A DNA stretch of 22,268 nucleotides from a virus, in the IMG/VR virus record IMGVR_UViG_3300046002_004089, positions 1-22,268 of that record. One strand, written 5' to 3'. A program made the translations under genes and the position numbers. Under the pieces are notes generated by a model that saw nothing but the letters and a program-made list of their open reading frames with translations, made no database searches and was not told where the DNA came from. Below, one piece after another: positions 11,929-22,231 of the stretch (position 1 is the first letter of the stretch; every line of letters starts with the position of its first letter).

Positions 11929-12255
11929 ATGGCGGCGCCGACTATTATCTGGAAAAGGGGTCAAACCTTCATCGCGACCGGGCCGTATGTTCCCGGCGCT
12001 GGTGACCCTCCAAACCTGTCCGGAGTGACCATTGAGAGCGAAGTGCAGGATTTTGCCCGTGTCCGCCGCCCTCTTTCCGTTGAAATCGCACCGGACAACA
12101 TCACCGTCACCCTGAGCGCAGAAGCTTCCGATACGGCAAATTGGGCTGTCGGAACTGCGGCTATCGACCTTCGTTGCGTCAAGGACGGGGTCGTCTTTTC
12201 AACCACGACTGTCCGCTTCGTCGTAGAACAGGAAATCACTCTGCCCAATGGCTAA
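11929..12255 (+). CDS. Small beta-sandwich protein before the fibre gene
   Basis: 108 residues, start 4 nt after the 15-mer, 8-nt overlap with the fibre gene. Alternating strands (TIIWKRGQTFIATGPYV; VTIESEVQDFARVRRPLSVE; VGTAAIDLRCVKDGVVF; STTTVRFVVEQEITLP) resemble the small domain often found at the N-terminus of baseplate or fibre proteins, which measures a material-like 'VRF' strand at its end. It may be an adaptor joining the collagen-like fibre to the tail tip. No catalytic motif is seen. Confidence 0.45.
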   Translation: MAAPTIIWKRGQTFIATGPYVPGAGDPPNLSGVTIESEVQDFARVRRPLSVEIAPDNITVTLSAEASDTANWAVGTAAIDLRCVKDGVVFSTTTVRFVVEQEITLPNG

Positions 12256-14191
12256 CATCGAACTCGTCCTCACCCCGGCATCCCCGACCGGGTCGATGGT
12301 CTTCACGCTCGGCGCTCCCGGGCCGCAAGGGCCAGCTGGAACCATCTCCGTAGGGACTGTCACGGCGAGCGCACCCGGAGGCCCGGCGGTAATCGTCAAT
12401 GTCGGAACCTCGACCGCGGCCATCCTTGACTTCACCATCCCTCGCGGCGAGCAGGGAACGCAGGGAATCCAAGGAATCCAAGGTGTCCAAGGTGTCCAAG
12501 GTGTCCCCGGGGAAAAAGGAGACAAGGGCGACCAAGGCATCCCGGGAACTTCTGGTGTCGCCTTCGCCACCGCGCCGCTGGCTTATGATTCCGTAACCAA
12601 GACCGTCAGCATCAGCCCGAATCCGAACTTCGACTCTATCTCCATCGCTACTAGTGGCTACGCAGGTTTATTCCAGAATCAAGTCTTCATCGGCGACGGC
12701 ATCCTGACGAACTACTTGGACATGACTCAGGGTCTTGTCCTTCAGAACGGTTCAATCACCTTCCCCAACTCCACAGTTCAGACGACCGCGTTCCCCGGCT
12801 TCGCTGGCTACGCGCTAGAGTCTTGGGTGACTGCCGGGTTCGCCGTCAAGGCCGCAGGACAGCCCGTATCTGGGACTGTCGGTCAGGTTCTAACCAAGAA
12901 CAGCGGCACGAACTACGACTCGTCATGGACTACGCTAATCCCGGGCGACCGCTACCTGACGACCTCGACGACGAGCCTTCAAATCAATAACCAGACCAAG
13001 ACGCTAACGATTGGGACAGGGTTGTCGTATACTTCTCAGCAGGACGTTGTCATCGCCTACGATGCTGACCACCACATGCATGCCCGGGTGCTGACCTACA
13101 ACTCTACCACCGGGGTGATGACTGTTGATGTTCTGAGCCACTCGGGAACAGGCACGTTTGCCCTCTGGACTGTCAATGTTGGCGGAGCTGTTCCGGCTCA
13201 GTCCGTTGCTTGGGGTTCCATCACCGGGACGCTCGGCAACCAGACTGACCTAGCTACTGCACTCAACGAGAAGCTTTCGACTATTGATGCGGCCGCAACT
13301 TACTATCCGCTGACCAACCCGACCGGGTTCATCACTAGCGCGGCGCTTGCGCCCTACCTGACCAGCGCGACCGCCGCATCGACCTACTTCACCATCGCCT
13401 CTGCCGCCGGAAAAGCGAACCTCTCCGGGGCGACGTTCACGGGTAAGGTCAACTTGGCAACGATTTCGGCATCAAGCCCGAGCGTGAACCTCGGAGGGCA
13501 ATGCGACTCTGCACCGGCTTCGGCAACGAACGGAGACCTGTGGATTTCAAATGCGGCCTCGCCTAAACTGACCTATCGGACTAACGGGATTAACTACAAC
13601 TTGGCCGTCCTGAATCAGTTCAACACCTTTACCGGGCAGATGGTGATTAATACCACTTCTTCTAGTACCGCCGCCCTGCGCGTCACTCAGCTCGGAACCG
13701 CCAACGCCATCGAGGTCGAGGACAGCACCAGCCCTGACTCGACTCGCTTCGTCGTCGATGCGAACGGCAAGGTCGGCATCGGCGTCTCCCCGGATACGAC
13801 CGCCGCGCTCAAGGTCGATACGAACGGCATCATGTTCGGCGACGGCACGACGCAGACGACGGCGGCTATTGCTCCTCCTCCGGCTCCTGATTACAACGCT
13901 CAGGCAAACAAGGCTTGGTTTTCTCAGAACTTCCTTAATGCAATCACATCTTACAACTACGACGGATATGGATATACTGTCGTCTATTACACAAATACGG
14001 AGGTGTTCGATGCAATGTTCCAAAATTATTCCGGGTCGGTAACCCTTGTTGGAAACGACGCCTACTCGGTAGACACTTATGGTAGCGGGTATGTCAGGTT
14101 TATTGGCGACATCCGCAACAGCACAGGGCAGTATTGCTCGTTCCATGTCGGTGGATTTAGCCTTGCTGGTTTGTACAAATTCTTTTCCTAA
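12248..14191 (+). CDS. Collagen-like tail fibre / adhesin
   Basis: 647 residues. Residues about 20-35 contain GAPGPQGPAG, and residues about 65-100 are an uninterrupted Gly-X-Y region (GEQGTQGIQGIQGVQGVQGV, then PGEKGDKGDQGIPG), which should form a trimeric collagen-like rod. Then follow two tail-fibre signatures, FPNSTVQTTAFPG and FGDGTTQTTAA, plus Ala/Thr/Ser-rich repeats (ATAASTYFTIASAAGKANLS). After a Pro-rich hinge (PPPAPDYN) the last 95 residues form a Tyr/Asn-rich tip, more A/T-rich than the rest, probably the receptor-binding domain. It acts at the distal tail. The fibre head is likely exchanged between phages. Confidence 0.8.
   Translation: MANIELVLTPASPTGSMVFTLGAPGPQGPAGTISVGTVTASAPGGPAVIVNVGTSTAAILDFTIPRGEQGTQGIQGIQGVQGVQGVPGEKGDKGDQGIPGTSGVAFATAPLAYDSVTKTVSISPNPNFDSISIATSGYAGLFQNQVFIGDGILTNYLDMTQGLVLQNGSITFPNSTVQTTAFPGFAGYALESWVTAGFAVKAAGQPVSGTVGQVLTKNSGTNYDSSWTTLIPGDRYLTTSTTSLQINNQTKTLTIGTGLSYTSQQDVVIAYDADHHMHARVLTYNSTTGVMTVDVLSHSGTGTFALWTVNVGGAVPAQSVAWGSITGTLGNQTDLATALNEKLSTIDAAATYYPLTNPTGFITSAALAPYLTSATAASTYFTIASAAGKANLSGATFTGKVNLATISASSPSVNLGGQCDSAPASATNGDLWISNAASPKLTYRTNGINYNLAVLNQFNTFTGQMVINTTSSSTAALRVTQLGTANAIEVEDSTSPDSTRFVVDANGKVGIGVSPDTTAALKVDTNGIMFGDGTTQTTAAIAPPPAPDYNAQANKAWFSQNFLNAITSYNYDGYGYTVVYYTNTEVFDAMFQNYSGSVTLVGNDAYSVDTYGSGYVRFIGDIRNSTGQYCSFHVGGFSLAGLYKFFS
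12452..12505 (+). repeat. 9-bp tandem repeat in the fibre gene
   Basis: Six 9-nt units starting at 12452, the last three identical (CAAGGTGTC), encode QG(T/I/V) triplets of the collagen-like rod. Unit gain or loss stays in frame and would change rod length by three residues at a time. Confidence 0.85.
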
Positions 14192-14192
14192 A

Positions 14193-14297
14193 ATGACCCA
14201 CCTAATCTGCATAGCCATCGGCTTCGTCGCCGGAGTCTACCGAAACACCATCGTCGAAAAGGCCCGCGAGCTTTACATCAAGTACTGCTCCAAGTGA
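14193..14297 (+). CDS. 34-residue membrane protein
   Basis: Starts 1 nt after the fibre stop and ends by overlapping the next start (TGATG). Sequence MTHLICIAIGFVAGVYRNTI begins with a short hydrophobic segment (residues 3-16) followed by a basic amphipathic helix. The coupling on both sides and conserved-looking composition argue that it is a real gene. It could be a lysis regulator such as an antiholin-like peptide; this is a guess from position only. Confidence 0.5.
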   Translation: MTHLICIAIGFVAGVYRNTIVEKARELYIKYCSK

Positions 14298-15019
14298 TGC
14301 GTCTCGCCGCGGTCATCGCCCTCCTTGCTTTGACCGGGTGCAAGTCCACGCCGAAGGTCGAGCCTCTCCCTGTCCAGCCTCCCGCTCCGACCAAGGAATC
14401 CGTCGTGACAGGCCTAGGCAAAGACTTGGACAAGGCCGACCACCGGGTTGCCTCGGCGCTGGTCGCCATAGAGAAGAACGCTGACAAGCCGAAGGTCGTC
14501 GTTGCGGAGTCCCGCCTAGCCCAGTCATACCTCCCTGAGCCTCCGGCCGGGGACGTTGCCTTCGCGATGGCCCGGGCAACCAAATCAGACCCTCTGGACT
14601 ACAAGAAGCAGATGGAGTTCGGTCGGCAACTGGCGACTGCGGTCAACAAGGCATGGGAGAAATTGGAGGCCGACCAGAAGGAAGCCGCCCGCGTCTCCGG
14701 CCTGAAGGATGCCCGTATCAAGGAGCTGACCGACGAAGTCGCCCGCGTGAAACAGGAAGCTTCCCAGAACATCTGGACACTCACGGGTGCGGCCTTGTTC
14801 GTCGCCGGAGCGCTCGCCACAGCCTTTGTCGGCCCGCGTATCGGCATCCCCCTAATCGCCTGTGCGGCCTTCGCTGGAGGAGTTCCCTTCATCTACGACT
14901 CGCCTTACTTTCTTATCGTCGCCATCGGAACTGCCGCCATCGCTTCCGGGTTCGGGCTGTGGTGGGTCTGGGACAAGGTGCGTGACTCCGTCAACTCCTC
15001 TCATGTCAAAAGGGATTAA
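14297..15019 (+). CDS. Lipoprotein with C-terminal membrane segments, candidate unimolecular spanin
   Basis: 240 residues from ATG 14297 (TGATG overlap); GTG 14294 is an alternative. The N-terminus MRLAAVIALLALTGCKS is a lipoprotein signal with lipobox LTGC and modified Cys15, then a Pro-rich linker (PLPVQPPAPTKES). Residues about 90-150 form a charged coiled coil (KLEADQKEAARVSGLKDARI). The C-terminus has three hydrophobic segments (WTLTGAALFVAGALATAFVG; IPLIACAAFAGGVPFIY; YFLIVAIGTAAIASGFGLWW). Lipid anchor at one end and membrane segment at the other is the layout of u-spanins such as T1 gp11, which fuse inner and outer membrane in the last lysis step. Three segments instead of one is unusual. 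It overlaps the next gene by 17 nt. Confidence 0.6.
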   Translation: MRLAAVIALLALTGCKSTPKVEPLPVQPPAPTKESVVTGLGKDLDKADHRVASALVAIEKNADKPKVVVAESRLAQSYLPEPPAGDVAFAMARATKSDPLDYKKQMEFGRQLATAVNKAWEKLEADQKEAARVSGLKDARIKELTDEVARVKQEASQNIWTLTGAALFVAGALATAFVGPRIGIPLIACAAFAGGVPFIYDSPYFLIVAIGTAAIASGFGLWWVWDKVRDSVNSSHVKRD

Positions 15020-15299
15020 GGTCGTGTGGCGTAAGCTGGGTCGCGAGGTCGCTTGGGGTCAGGCGCACTTCGACCCGGCGCATCCGCTGATTGAGGTAGA
15101 CCCTCGGCTCGGTTCAAAGAGACAGCTAGAAGTCCTGTGCCACGAAATCCTGCACATCACCCTGTTCCCGAATGACACCACCCCGGCCACGGAGAAGCTT
15201 GTCGATGCCGCGGGAAAGAAGCTGTGCGACACCCTCTGGAAACAGAACTACCGCCGGGTGCTGATGGAAAAGAACGCCAAGCCTCCCCGCATCTCATGA
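15003..15299 (+). CDS. Small HEILH-motif putative metallopeptidase
   Basis: 98 residues from ATG 15003; a longer in-frame start at 14862 would lie deep inside the lipoprotein gene. CHEILHITLF contains HExxH (His47, Glu48, His51), the zinc-binding and catalytic signature of gluzincin/metzincin-like peptidases such as the ImmA and SprT groups. A following Glu/Asp-containing helix (TEKLVDAAGKKLCDTLWKQN) could supply the third ligand. At under 100 residues it is close to a minimal domain. It lies inside the lysis cassette, so it could cleave a cell-envelope or virion protein; that is inference. ATGA overlap with the holin. Confidence 0.55.
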   Translation: MSKGIKVVWRKLGREVAWGQAHFDPAHPLIEVDPRLGSKRQLEVLCHEILHITLFPNDTTPATEKLVDAAGKKLCDTLWKQNYRRVLMEKNAKPPRIS

Positions 15300-15673
15300 G
15301 CGCGGCTCCGTTCACGCCGGAAGACATCCCGAAGGAGGTCAAGGACGGCCTCGTCGCATCCGTCCTCGGAGGCCTTGCGATGACGGCCCGGCTTCTGCTT
15401 TCGACTGAACCCGTGTCGATTGGCTGGGTTGCCCGCCGGGTTAGTGCGGCCGCAATTACCGCGGCTATCGTCGGCTACGCCATACAAGACCACATCGCAT
15501 CGGCGGGACTGCGGATGGGTGTGGTTGGCGCGGCTGGCTACGCGGCTCCCGAATGTCTGGACTATCTGCTCAAGTATGTCAAAGCCCGTGGCGAGAAGGA
15601 AGTTGCCGCGGTCGCAGGGAAACCCTCAAAGCCCAATGGCAAAAAGAAGTCTACCGCCAAGCGCAGGAAATGA
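15296..15673 (+). CDS. Holin
   Basis: 125 residues from ATG 15296 (ATGA overlap). Three hydrophobic stretches are visible: DGLVASVLGGLAMTARLLLS, VSAAAITAAIVGYAIQDHIA and MGVVGAAGYAAPECLDYLL. A strongly basic tail follows (KPSKPNGKKKSTAKRRK), classic for holins of class I, whose cytoplasmic tail controls timing. The arrangement resembles LydA/phage-holin-family proteins. It would open the inner membrane at the end of infection. The gene overlaps the next by 38 nt. Confidence 0.7.
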   Translation: MSAAPFTPEDIPKEVKDGLVASVLGGLAMTARLLLSTEPVSIGWVARRVSAAAITAAIVGYAIQDHIASAGLRMGVVGAAGYAAPECLDYLLKYVKARGEKEVAAVAGKPSKPNGKKKSTAKRRK

Positions 15674-15974
15674 GGGGAACCTCCTTCTCGCGGTATTCCT
15701 GCTGACCGCCTTCGCCGGGCTGTCGGCGCTTGGGTCGGCATACATTTCTGGGTTCGTCCTTGACCAGCTTCAGTCCACTGAGGCGATGGCCCTCATCATC
15801 ACGGACGGCGGCATCAAGTCTGATTCAAAGGAGCTAGAGCGAAACCTGTCCACGGCCACCATGGCTTTGAACGCATGCCGGGACTTGGGCTGGGCTCTCG
15901 CCGTGGGGTGTATCGGGGTGGGGGTGGCCCTTGGGGTCAGGCTGGGGGTCAAAAGGCCTCCACGGGCCTCCTAG
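15636..15974 (+). CDS. Two-segment membrane protein of the lysis cassette
   Basis: 112 residues from ATG 15636, in the frame that overlaps the holin tail by 38 nt. Two hydrophobic segments: LLLAVFLLTAFAGLSALGSA and DLGWALAVGCIGVGVALGVR, with an acidic periplasmic or cytoplasmic loop (IITDGGIKSDSKELERN). It ends GVKRPPRAS, encoded within the 44-nt inverted element copy B. An antiholin or second holin are the plausible roles; no family is recognised. The start is uncertain because GTG/TTG starts further downstream would avoid the overlap. Confidence 0.5.
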   Translation: MAKRSLPPSAGNEGNLLLAVFLLTAFAGLSALGSAYISGFVLDQLQSTEAMALIITDGGIKSDSKELERNLSTATMALNACRDLGWALAVGCIGVGVALGVRLGVKRPPRAS

Positions 15975-21003: not shown

Positions 21004-21803
21004 TGAACTACCAAATTGCCATCCCGACCTACAAGCGATACGCCGACGTTCGCAAGAAGACCATCGAGACGCTCCTGCGCCACGACGCTGACCCTGCCCG
21101 CATCACCGTCTTCGTAGCCTCTGAGGCCGAACGCGAGCGATACGCCGCGGCCATCGGCCCGGGCTTCCGAATCGTGGTCGGCCAGCTTGGAATCTCGAAC
21201 CAGCGCAAGTTCATCAGCAACCACTACCCTGCCGGGACTCGCATCCTTTCCCTTGACGACGACGTCACCGCGCTCAAGGAGAAGCAAGGCAAGCGCATGG
21301 TGGACTGCCGCCTGTCCATCGACGAAATCTCCTCCATCGGCTTCGGGCTATGCGAGAAGCATAACGCAAAGCTGTGGGGAATCTACCCGGTCGCTAACGG
21401 ATTCTTCCTGAAGGACAAGGCAAGCCTCGGACTCAAGTTCGTCTGCGGCATCTTCTTCGGTTCATACGCGGGCGACCCGGTGCTGGCTGGCTTCCGCGAC
21501 AACCAAAGTTCCGGCGAAGACTTGGAGACGACGCTCCTTTCCTTCAAGCGATACGGCTCGACTGTCCGCATCGACTGGATTTGCCCGACCACGAAATACT
21601 TCGCCGACGGAGGCATCGACGCGGAACTGAAAGACCGCGGCATCGGTGAACGCAACGCGGACAACACCCGGTGCTTGCTCAACATCGAGGCGCGTCACTC
21701 CGACTTGGTGACCAGCTACGTCAAGGCCGGAGATGTGACCAACCTGAGGTTCAAACGCATCACGACAGCGGAATACTCCCGGTCACAGCTAACCGACAAA
21801 TGA
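21003..21803 (+). CDS. Glycosyltransferase-like protein, TET-associated (TAGT) type candidate
   Basis: 266 residues. The opening YQIAIPTYKRYADVRKKTIE is a GT-A nucleotide-sugar start; ITVFVASEAERERYAAAIGP and VVGQLGISNQRKFISNHYP follow; ILSLDDDVTALKE carries the DxD-type metal site (Asp85-Asp87). The combination VFVAxExE...Y, GIxNQRxFI and SxDDDV is the pattern I associate with TET-associated glycosyltransferases, described in phages as enzymes acting on hydroxymethylated cytosine. Later SSGEDLETTLLSFKRYGSTV could supply the catalytic acidic residue. The DNA cytosine methyltransferase 1.8 kb upstream fits a hypermodification route, but no TET/JBP dioxygenase is in the window. A general sugar transferase is the alternative. 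Confidence 0.62.
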   Translation: MNYQIAIPTYKRYADVRKKTIETLLRHDADPARITVFVASEAERERYAAAIGPGFRIVVGQLGISNQRKFISNHYPAGTRILSLDDDVTALKEKQGKRMVDCRLSIDEISSIGFGLCEKHNAKLWGIYPVANGFFLKDKASLGLKFVCGIFFGSYAGDPVLAGFRDNQSSGEDLETTLLSFKRYGSTVRIDWICPTTKYFADGGIDAELKDRGIGERNADNTRCLLNIEARHSDLVTSYVKAGDVTNLRFKRITTAEYSRSQLTDK

Positions 21804-22231
21804 GACGCGCCATGTCGATTGTGTTCGCGGCCATGCTGAGTCACGCCGCACTTGCGGTCACCGACGCAAAGCTGTTGAACGCAATCGGCATGGTCGAGTC
21901 CGGCATGAATCACCGCGCCATCGGCGACGGAGGTCTTGCTCTTGGTGCGTATCAGATGCACCCGGAAGCTTGGCAGGATGCCAATAATTTCCTTGCCTCA
22001 AAAGGCATGGCGACATGGCCGCGTTCTGCGTGGCACGATGCCCGCGTTCAACGCATCATGGCTGGCGCGTATCTGTCCGTCATCCGCAAAAGGTTACGCG
22101 ACATGGGCTACCTGAACCCCACCCCGGCCCAGCTGGCCCTGTGCTGGAACTTCGGCCCGGGCGGCGCACGTCGCGAAGGGTTCCGGATTACCCCATACGC
22201 TCAAAGGGTCGTTTCTATCGCTAAGAACTGA
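21800..22231 (+). CDS. Secreted lysozyme / lytic transglycosylase-like protein
   Basis: 143 residues from ATG 21800 (4-nt ATGA overlap). MRRAMSIVFAAMLSHAALAV is a signal peptide with an Ala-x-Ala-type cleavage site. LLNAIGMVESGMNHRAIGDG carries the likely catalytic Glu33 of the lysozyme-like/SLT fold ('E-S-G/S' followed by Gly-rich turn), then LALGAYQMHPEAW, typical of the 'G-x-x-Q' region, and ALCWNFGPGGARREGF like the C-terminal 'A-x-N-x-G' motif. It would cut peptidoglycan glycan strands. Unlike a cytoplasmic endolysin it should be exported by Sec. It is far (6 kb) from the holin. It could be the endolysin or an entry enzyme. Confidence 0.7.
   Translation: MRRAMSIVFAAMLSHAALAVTDAKLLNAIGMVESGMNHRAIGDGGLALGAYQMHPEAWQDANNFLASKGMATWPRSAWHDARVQRIMAGAYLSVIRKRLRDMGYLNPTPAQLALCWNFGPGGARREGFRITPYAQRVVSIAKN

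Follow-up and report, generated by a model that had tools for sequence, protein, structure and literature searches.

What does the protein encoded at 14297-15019 do for the virus that carries it? The gene lies in a stretch of 22,268 nucleotides (hereafter the window), positions 1 to 22,268 of the IMG/VR virus record IMGVR_UViG_3300046002_004089. A sequence-only reading of this DNA had proposed that the product is an unusual lipoprotein resembling a unimolecular spanin (u-spanin), with three membrane segments instead of one and a place just before the holin gene. We followed up this proposal computationally, looking at the gene, its relatives and its neighbours, which in the window are the following:

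14193..14297, + strand: small single-segment membrane protein of 34 aa, ending at the lipoprotein start codon
14297..15019, + strand: u-spanin-like lipoprotein gene, 240 aa
15003..15299, + strand: M78/IrrE-like metallopeptidase (HExxH; PF06114, E=2e-5, 24.8 bits for a cutoff of 22)
15296..15673, + strand: putative LydA-type holin (phrog_6384 holin, E=2.6e-6)
15636..15974, + strand: two-membrane-segment protein after the holin, with matches in 69 of 82 loci
21800..22231, + strand: candidate endolysin, a lysozyme/transglycosylase-like protein that carries a signal peptide (phrog_4067, E=2.6e-7)

Architecture and conservation of the lipoprotein

The ORF at 14297-15019 begins with an ATG, and a GTG in frame at 14294 would lengthen the protein by 1 residue. 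A signal peptide (residues 1-14) is followed by Cys15 of the lipobox LTGC, at which the protein would be lipidated. Residues 16-38 form a Pro-rich linker that leads into a helical periplasmic part, whose stalk helix starts at residue 99 and continues into the first of three C-terminal membrane segments (161-179, 182-200 and 206-224 by hydropathy; about 160-178, 183-199 and 207-224 when all evidence is combined), and a short tail closes the chain. In a six-frame scan, this ORF was the sole one of the window with a lipobox. Resampled windows contained 0-2 lipobox ORFs each (n=15 windows), and none of at least 100 aa was found in another 15 resampled windows.

We then gathered relatives in IMG/VR. 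A single-protein search with the window lipoprotein gave 87 related stretches (the best 80 of 87 were kept), a search by alignment gave 214 (the best 80 of 214 were kept), and more were collected by scans with the family member L050, with the neighbouring holin and with the distant member L231. Many loci were the same contigs fetched repeatedly, and counts are on distinct proteins where so stated. These searches provided 119 distinct complete proteins, the window's own not counted, with identities to the window protein down to 31% (L305). The N-terminal lipobox that the sequence-only reading had pointed out, present in the window at Cys15, was detected by script, together with a usable start, in 118 of these 119 distinct relatives. 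The remaining one, L245, carries the lipobox LAGC by eye and was missed, as fusion to the next gene takes it beyond the length limit of the script. The strict lipobox consensus given in PMC6139136 was matched by 112 of the 118. Position +2 is occupied by S, K, A, T, E or R, and Asp was found there in 0 of the 118 proteins. Similarly, no periplasmic Cys was found in the 119 aligned members of the family.

The gene is under purifying selection throughout, as dN/dS between the window and four relatives (L001, L002, L003 and L005) was 0.05-0.08 for the whole gene and 0.03-0.09 for the part encoding the membrane segments. At the same time, the periplasmic and membrane halves have been exchanged between phages, as seen with L258 and L048, whose identity is 97% over the membrane segments' half but 52% over the periplasmic one. 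The architecture of the lipoprotein persists despite this swapping of its parts. Moreover, neither the periplasmic nor the membrane half was found encoded alone, as none of 2710 matches fell outside the gene (0/2710), in loci that had been picked via the lipoprotein gene or the holin. Half exchange was also observed in the pairs L253/L007 and L246/L008, where identity jumps from around 50% in one half to at least 94% in the other, and the window protein shows the reverse pattern with L240 (80% identity in the periplasmic half, 31% in the membrane half). The family is unannotated, and three of its members found no match among GenBank phages (0 matches at E limits of 0.01, 1 and 1).

Membrane topology and predicted structure

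The three hydrophobic segments at the C-terminus, claimed from the sequence of the window alone, are seen by hydropathy and hold in the family. Using an alignment of 119 proteins (the window's and 118 others), we found three uncharged runs of at least 14 residues after residue 120 in 117 of them and two runs in 2, while no such run was present within residues 16-150 in any of the 119. The number of segments counted by hydropathy varies with the threshold chosen: a 17-residue mean of 1.5 gave three segments in 115 of the 119, and a 19-residue mean of 1.6 gave three in 27, two in 77 and one in 15. The third segment is the weakest, peaking lowest of the three when the family is averaged (1.51). 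Considering that this segment is only weakly hydrophobic (27/119 at the strict threshold), the protein may instead have two segments and its C-terminus outside. Among 33 representatives sharing less than 85% identity, all 33 showed three segments on one or both of two measures. Two proteins depart in detail: L240, in which two segments are merged into one run of 43 residues, and L012, in which only two segments pass the hydropathy cut.

The distribution of charges points to the orientation of these segments. Across the 119 aligned proteins, almost no charged residues occur inside the three segments, while a single K/R without any D/E is present in loop 1, and 1.76 D/E with about no K/R in loop 2. 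Following the positive-inside rule, by which positively charged loops lie inside, loop 1 would be inside and loop 2 outside, which would leave the N-terminus outside. The charges thus predict an N-out/C-in topology, and an N-terminus outside is what a lipoprotein requires. With 2.9 K/R and 3.05 D/E, the tail is close to neutral and is little informative on topology.

Structure prediction was also used to characterize the protein. The first AlphaFold model had a mean pLDDT of 56 and a pTM of 0.26, while a second AF2 model, for which 33 more diverse sequences were aligned, reached a mean pLDDT of 71 and a pTM of 0.32 and is of moderate confidence. In this second model, helices are predicted at residues 34-60, 65-78, 84-95, 99-176, 180-200 and 205-238, with the stalk passing into the first membrane segment within the one helix 99-176, and no beta strands are predicted in the AF2 models. 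Residues 105-158 are amphipathic, with a period of 3.6 (p=0.004) better marked than a period of 3.5 (p=0.04). The middle of the protein, where a coiled coil had been placed, is a long amphipathic helix that may or may not form a coiled coil proper. Neither topology nor structure prediction placed the segments in a soluble fold.

The gene cassette and the probable role of the lipoprotein

The cassette of the window runs, in order, from the 34-aa membrane protein through the lipoprotein, the M78-like metallopeptidase and the LydA-type holin to the two-segment protein, each gene overlapping the next. By tblastn over 82 loci, several of them too short, we found matches to the M78 peptidase in 78, to the holin in 75, to the two-segment protein in 69 and to the lysozyme in 40. 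The window holin itself scores below the cutoff against Pfam Phage_holin_3_3 (E=0.071). The candidate endolysin lies about 6 kb from the cassette, and its 40 matches have to be read with the fact that several loci are too short to contain it. A small membrane ORF precedes the lipoprotein in 73 of 75 loci, of which 67 were recognized by hydropathy and another 6 through tblastn searches with the window ORF. In relatives this ORF encodes 40-44 aa, with one N-terminal segment followed by a basic helix (for example in L015). The 34-aa protein is perhaps an antiholin or a pinholin-like partner. The two-segment protein at 15636-15974, which overlaps the end of the holin gene in another frame and has no family match below E=0.2 in Pfam or PHROGs, is possibly an antiholin or another partner of the holin. 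We also observed an extra small two-segment ORF between the peptidase and the holin in L084 (10972-11137), in L053 and, less clearly, in L075, suggesting that small membrane genes come and go in the cassette. The gene preceding the cassette (12248-14191) encodes collagen-like GxY repeats and was found by tblastn in 67 of 82 loci with widely varying identity; its product is probably a tail fibre.

The lipoprotein gene had been described as lying just before the holin. A holin is indeed close in nearly all loci, but in the window the M78-like gene (15003-15299) intervenes. This gene, whose first bases overlap the last ones of the lipoprotein gene, comes next in 81 of 86 loci, while it does not adjoin in the other 5 of 86. 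In L245, starting from 2994, the lipoprotein and the peptidase form a single ORF of 336 aa, a single case that may stem from a sequencing error; should the tail be inside, the peptidase of this fusion would be cytoplasmic. As 24 of 110 loci in one count had been fetched via the holin, which made that count circular, we used two non-circular ones. Starting from the lipoprotein gene, a holin homologue was found within 1 kb in 84 of 86 loci, counting distinct proteins in loci with 1 kb of room downstream. The two exceptions, L053 and L075, have a different LydA-like ORF in the place of the holin, which in L053 is a phrog_785 holin (E=0.0022). Starting from the holin, the lipoprotein gene was found upstream in 76 of 80 loci, and the 4 others begin less than 300 bases from the holin. 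The M78 gene is dispensable, and the pairing with a holin is the constant.

Taken together, the predicted lipid anchor, the three helices and the neighbouring holin make it most likely that the protein helps to break the host outer membrane at the end of infection. We consider that it is probably a u-spanin-like lysis protein with a polytopic, three-helix anchor in the inner membrane. The lipobox, the helical stalk, the three segments and the holin neighbourhood all recur in the family, in keeping with this role, while the periplasmic part is predicted to be helical and not beta-rich. Other points that speak against the reading are the moderate confidence of the AF2 models, the weakly hydrophobic third segment, the failure to detect homology to a tested spanin, the distance of 6 kb to the candidate endolysin and the occurrence of other lipobox-like ORFs in the loci. 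As the beta-rich character of the phage T1 family is not predicted and the function is inferred only, we call the protein u-spanin-like and not a proven u-spanin.

The protein would act as follows. After export it would be lipidated at Cys15, and its lipid would be sorted to the outer membrane while the three C-terminal helices remain in the inner one. In E. coli, Asp at +2 is the usual signal for retention in the inner membrane; the fact that Asp never occupies this position in the family suggests sorting to the outer membrane, although the rule may not hold in the host. The Pro-rich linker and the helical stalk would then cross the periplasm inside the peptidoglycan mesh. Once the holin has fired and the endolysin has degraded the wall, the freed molecules may gather and fold back, and so pull the inner and outer membranes against each other to the point of fusion or rupture. 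More tentatively, with the chances slightly below even, the family may represent a distinct mechanical class of one-protein spanin, having a lipid in the outer membrane, an unbroken all-helical stalk and a three-helix platform in the inner membrane, working as a helical (class I-type) fusogen and not as the beta-rich T1 type, and serving as a main agent of outer-membrane disruption in a large group of uncultured phages whose hosts are probably Verrucomicrobiota.

Other explanations have to be weighed against this reading. The tight linkage to the holin gene, the two further small membrane proteins of the cassette and the helical nature of the periplasmic part could also be expected of a lipoprotein with lipid and helices all in the inner membrane, which would regulate the holin as an antiholin or a lysis-timing sensor and use its periplasmic domain to sense the envelope. 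We regard such a regulator as unlikely, considering that by the E. coli rule the lack of Asp at +2 (0/118) argues against inner-membrane retention and that it would leave the phage without a visible spanin, even if about 13% of the genomes in PMC6139136 were without any spanin. Phages also carry lipoproteins for superinfection exclusion, as Cor of phage T1, which is annotated so at 29623-29850 of NC_005833 and was flagged by our same lipobox scan. That the protein is one of these, or alters the envelope in some other way and only happens to sit in the late operon, appears improbable: its position before the holin is kept when the M78 gene is missing or the holin is divergent, and such a function has no evident need of an extensive conserved membrane part.

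The sequence-only reading had itself raised a holin fused to a spanin, in which the C-terminal three-helix part would make the inner-membrane lesion. Class I holins have an N-out, C-in topology, which the three-helix part resembles; this part was also exchanged as a unit between L258 and L048, and residues 144-229 of the window protein match Pfam Phage_holin_3_6 (PF07332; E=0.0015, 19.0 bits, below the cutoff of 28.4), as do 7 of the 33 representatives at E<=0.01. Against this, nearly every locus with enough room has a holin-like gene of its own behind the lipoprotein gene, which makes the fusion less likely, and the membrane module was never found alone in the 2710 matches from loci picked via the lipoprotein gene or the holin. 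We give this explanation very little probability and keep the u-spanin-like lysis protein as the preferred one.

The hosts are likely Verrucomicrobiota, on weak evidence. The sole cellular match of the lipoprotein, at 62% identity, is on one contig, possibly a misbinned phage contig, of an uncultured Opitutae MAG, and that same MAG was the only one of 384 Opitutae genomes to carry the gene. For the portal protein, the first among the matches listed was Akkermansia phage Moulinsart (25.8% identity), with Verrucomicrobia phage P8625 also present. The MAG match and the Akkermansia-phage-like portal together suggest a Verrucomicrobiota host. By title, we found no paper on this phage group in the spanin literature on Verrucomicrobia phages, and the string 'verrucomicrob' is absent from the main text of a 2025 survey (PMC12596118). 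If our reading is true, 'one lipid, one helix' is too narrow a rule for spanins made of one protein, and such proteins would escape pipelines that look for one segment only or for resemblance to known spanins. It would also provide a candidate for outer-membrane lysis in a phage group for which we found none described, and a helical u-spanin would permit helical and beta-type fusion models to be compared within one chain.

Comparison with known spanins and other families

We looked for a homologue with a known unrelated role and found none, and the comparison with u-spanin families and other named families likewise gave no meaningful match. Searches of Pfam, PHROGs and NCBIfam returned weak partial matches only, covering the stalk, the first 31 residues or the membrane segments in those matches for which ranges were given. 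A head-scaffolding identity proposed by PHROGs for 4 of 33 members (best E=7.1e-5) was set aside. In the PDB, the best match by sequence had E=0.013 for the window protein and E=0.47 for the profile, and no match was found by fold at E<=0.001; fold Z scores of up to 6.4 over 49 residues were discarded, being not meaningful for helical hairpins. At E<=0.001, BFVD gave two uncharacterised phage proteins for the first model and one for the second. The bacterial family TIGR04211 (SH3_and_anchor) matches some of the relatives over the stalk and first membrane helix (for example L246 residues 98-178, E=4.2e-6), but this match reaches 26.5 bits for a cutoff of 65 and leaves the first half of the profile unmatched, and the window protein does not match it. 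Holin superfamily III is similar only by the weak Phage_holin_3_6 match below the curated cutoff, over the stalk end and the membrane segments, and differs by the N-terminal lipoprotein and periplasmic domain that it lacks and by the separate holin that the window has nearby.

PMC6139136 names phage T1 gp11 as a u-spanin and has 13 u-spanin families, describes u-spanins as beta-rich, with a periplasmic domain that is mainly beta-sheet in the T1 family, reports periplasmic Cys in 0 of 58 u-spanins, and uses criteria that leave out other membrane topologies. We measured one membrane segment each in T1 gp11 and in the u-spanin-type proteins of SIO1, VpV262, RAP44 and 11b. T1 gp11 is the named u-spanin gene, and the other four were chosen from phages in Table 5 of that paper, those of RAP44 and 11b being picked by eye where the scan had flagged other ORFs. 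No u-spanin was found in positions 1-40000 of PB1, and the protein after the endolysin of phi12:1 has a lipobox and no segment in the partial sequence covered. A u-spanin with several membrane segments is undescribed in the accessible parts of PMC6139136, PMC12596118, PMC9636201, PMC8705779 and PMC8776804.

We also considered that the two anchors could be split over two proteins; in the window, no other ORF has a lipobox. No separate o-spanin candidate recurred in six contigs of 32-45 kb. Over 83 loci (995,662 bases), 25 other lipobox-like ORFs were found. In 10 cases this was the two-segment protein following the holin, which has the Cys inside its first segment, and the remaining ones are dispersed or, in close relatives, lie on the opposite strand.

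With the o-spanins of the lambda Rz1 type the lipoprotein shares a Pro-rich lipoprotein N-terminus (phrog_3198 Rz-like spanin, residues 1-31, E=5.5e-4) and with the i-spanins of the lambda Rz type a helical periplasmic stalk, and it differs from the Rz/Rz1 pair by having both anchors in one chain and no periplasmic Cys. The u-spanin plan, as described in PMC6139136, places an outer-membrane lipid and an inner-membrane helix at opposite ends of the chain. The window protein differs from the u-spanins in having three membrane segments and not one, a periplasmic part predicted to be all-helical where that of the T1 family is beta-rich, and no detected sequence similarity. On the other hand, it resembles them in its N-terminal lipobox, the absence of periplasmic Cys, a C-terminal membrane anchor, although with three segments, and a lysis neighbourhood with a holin.
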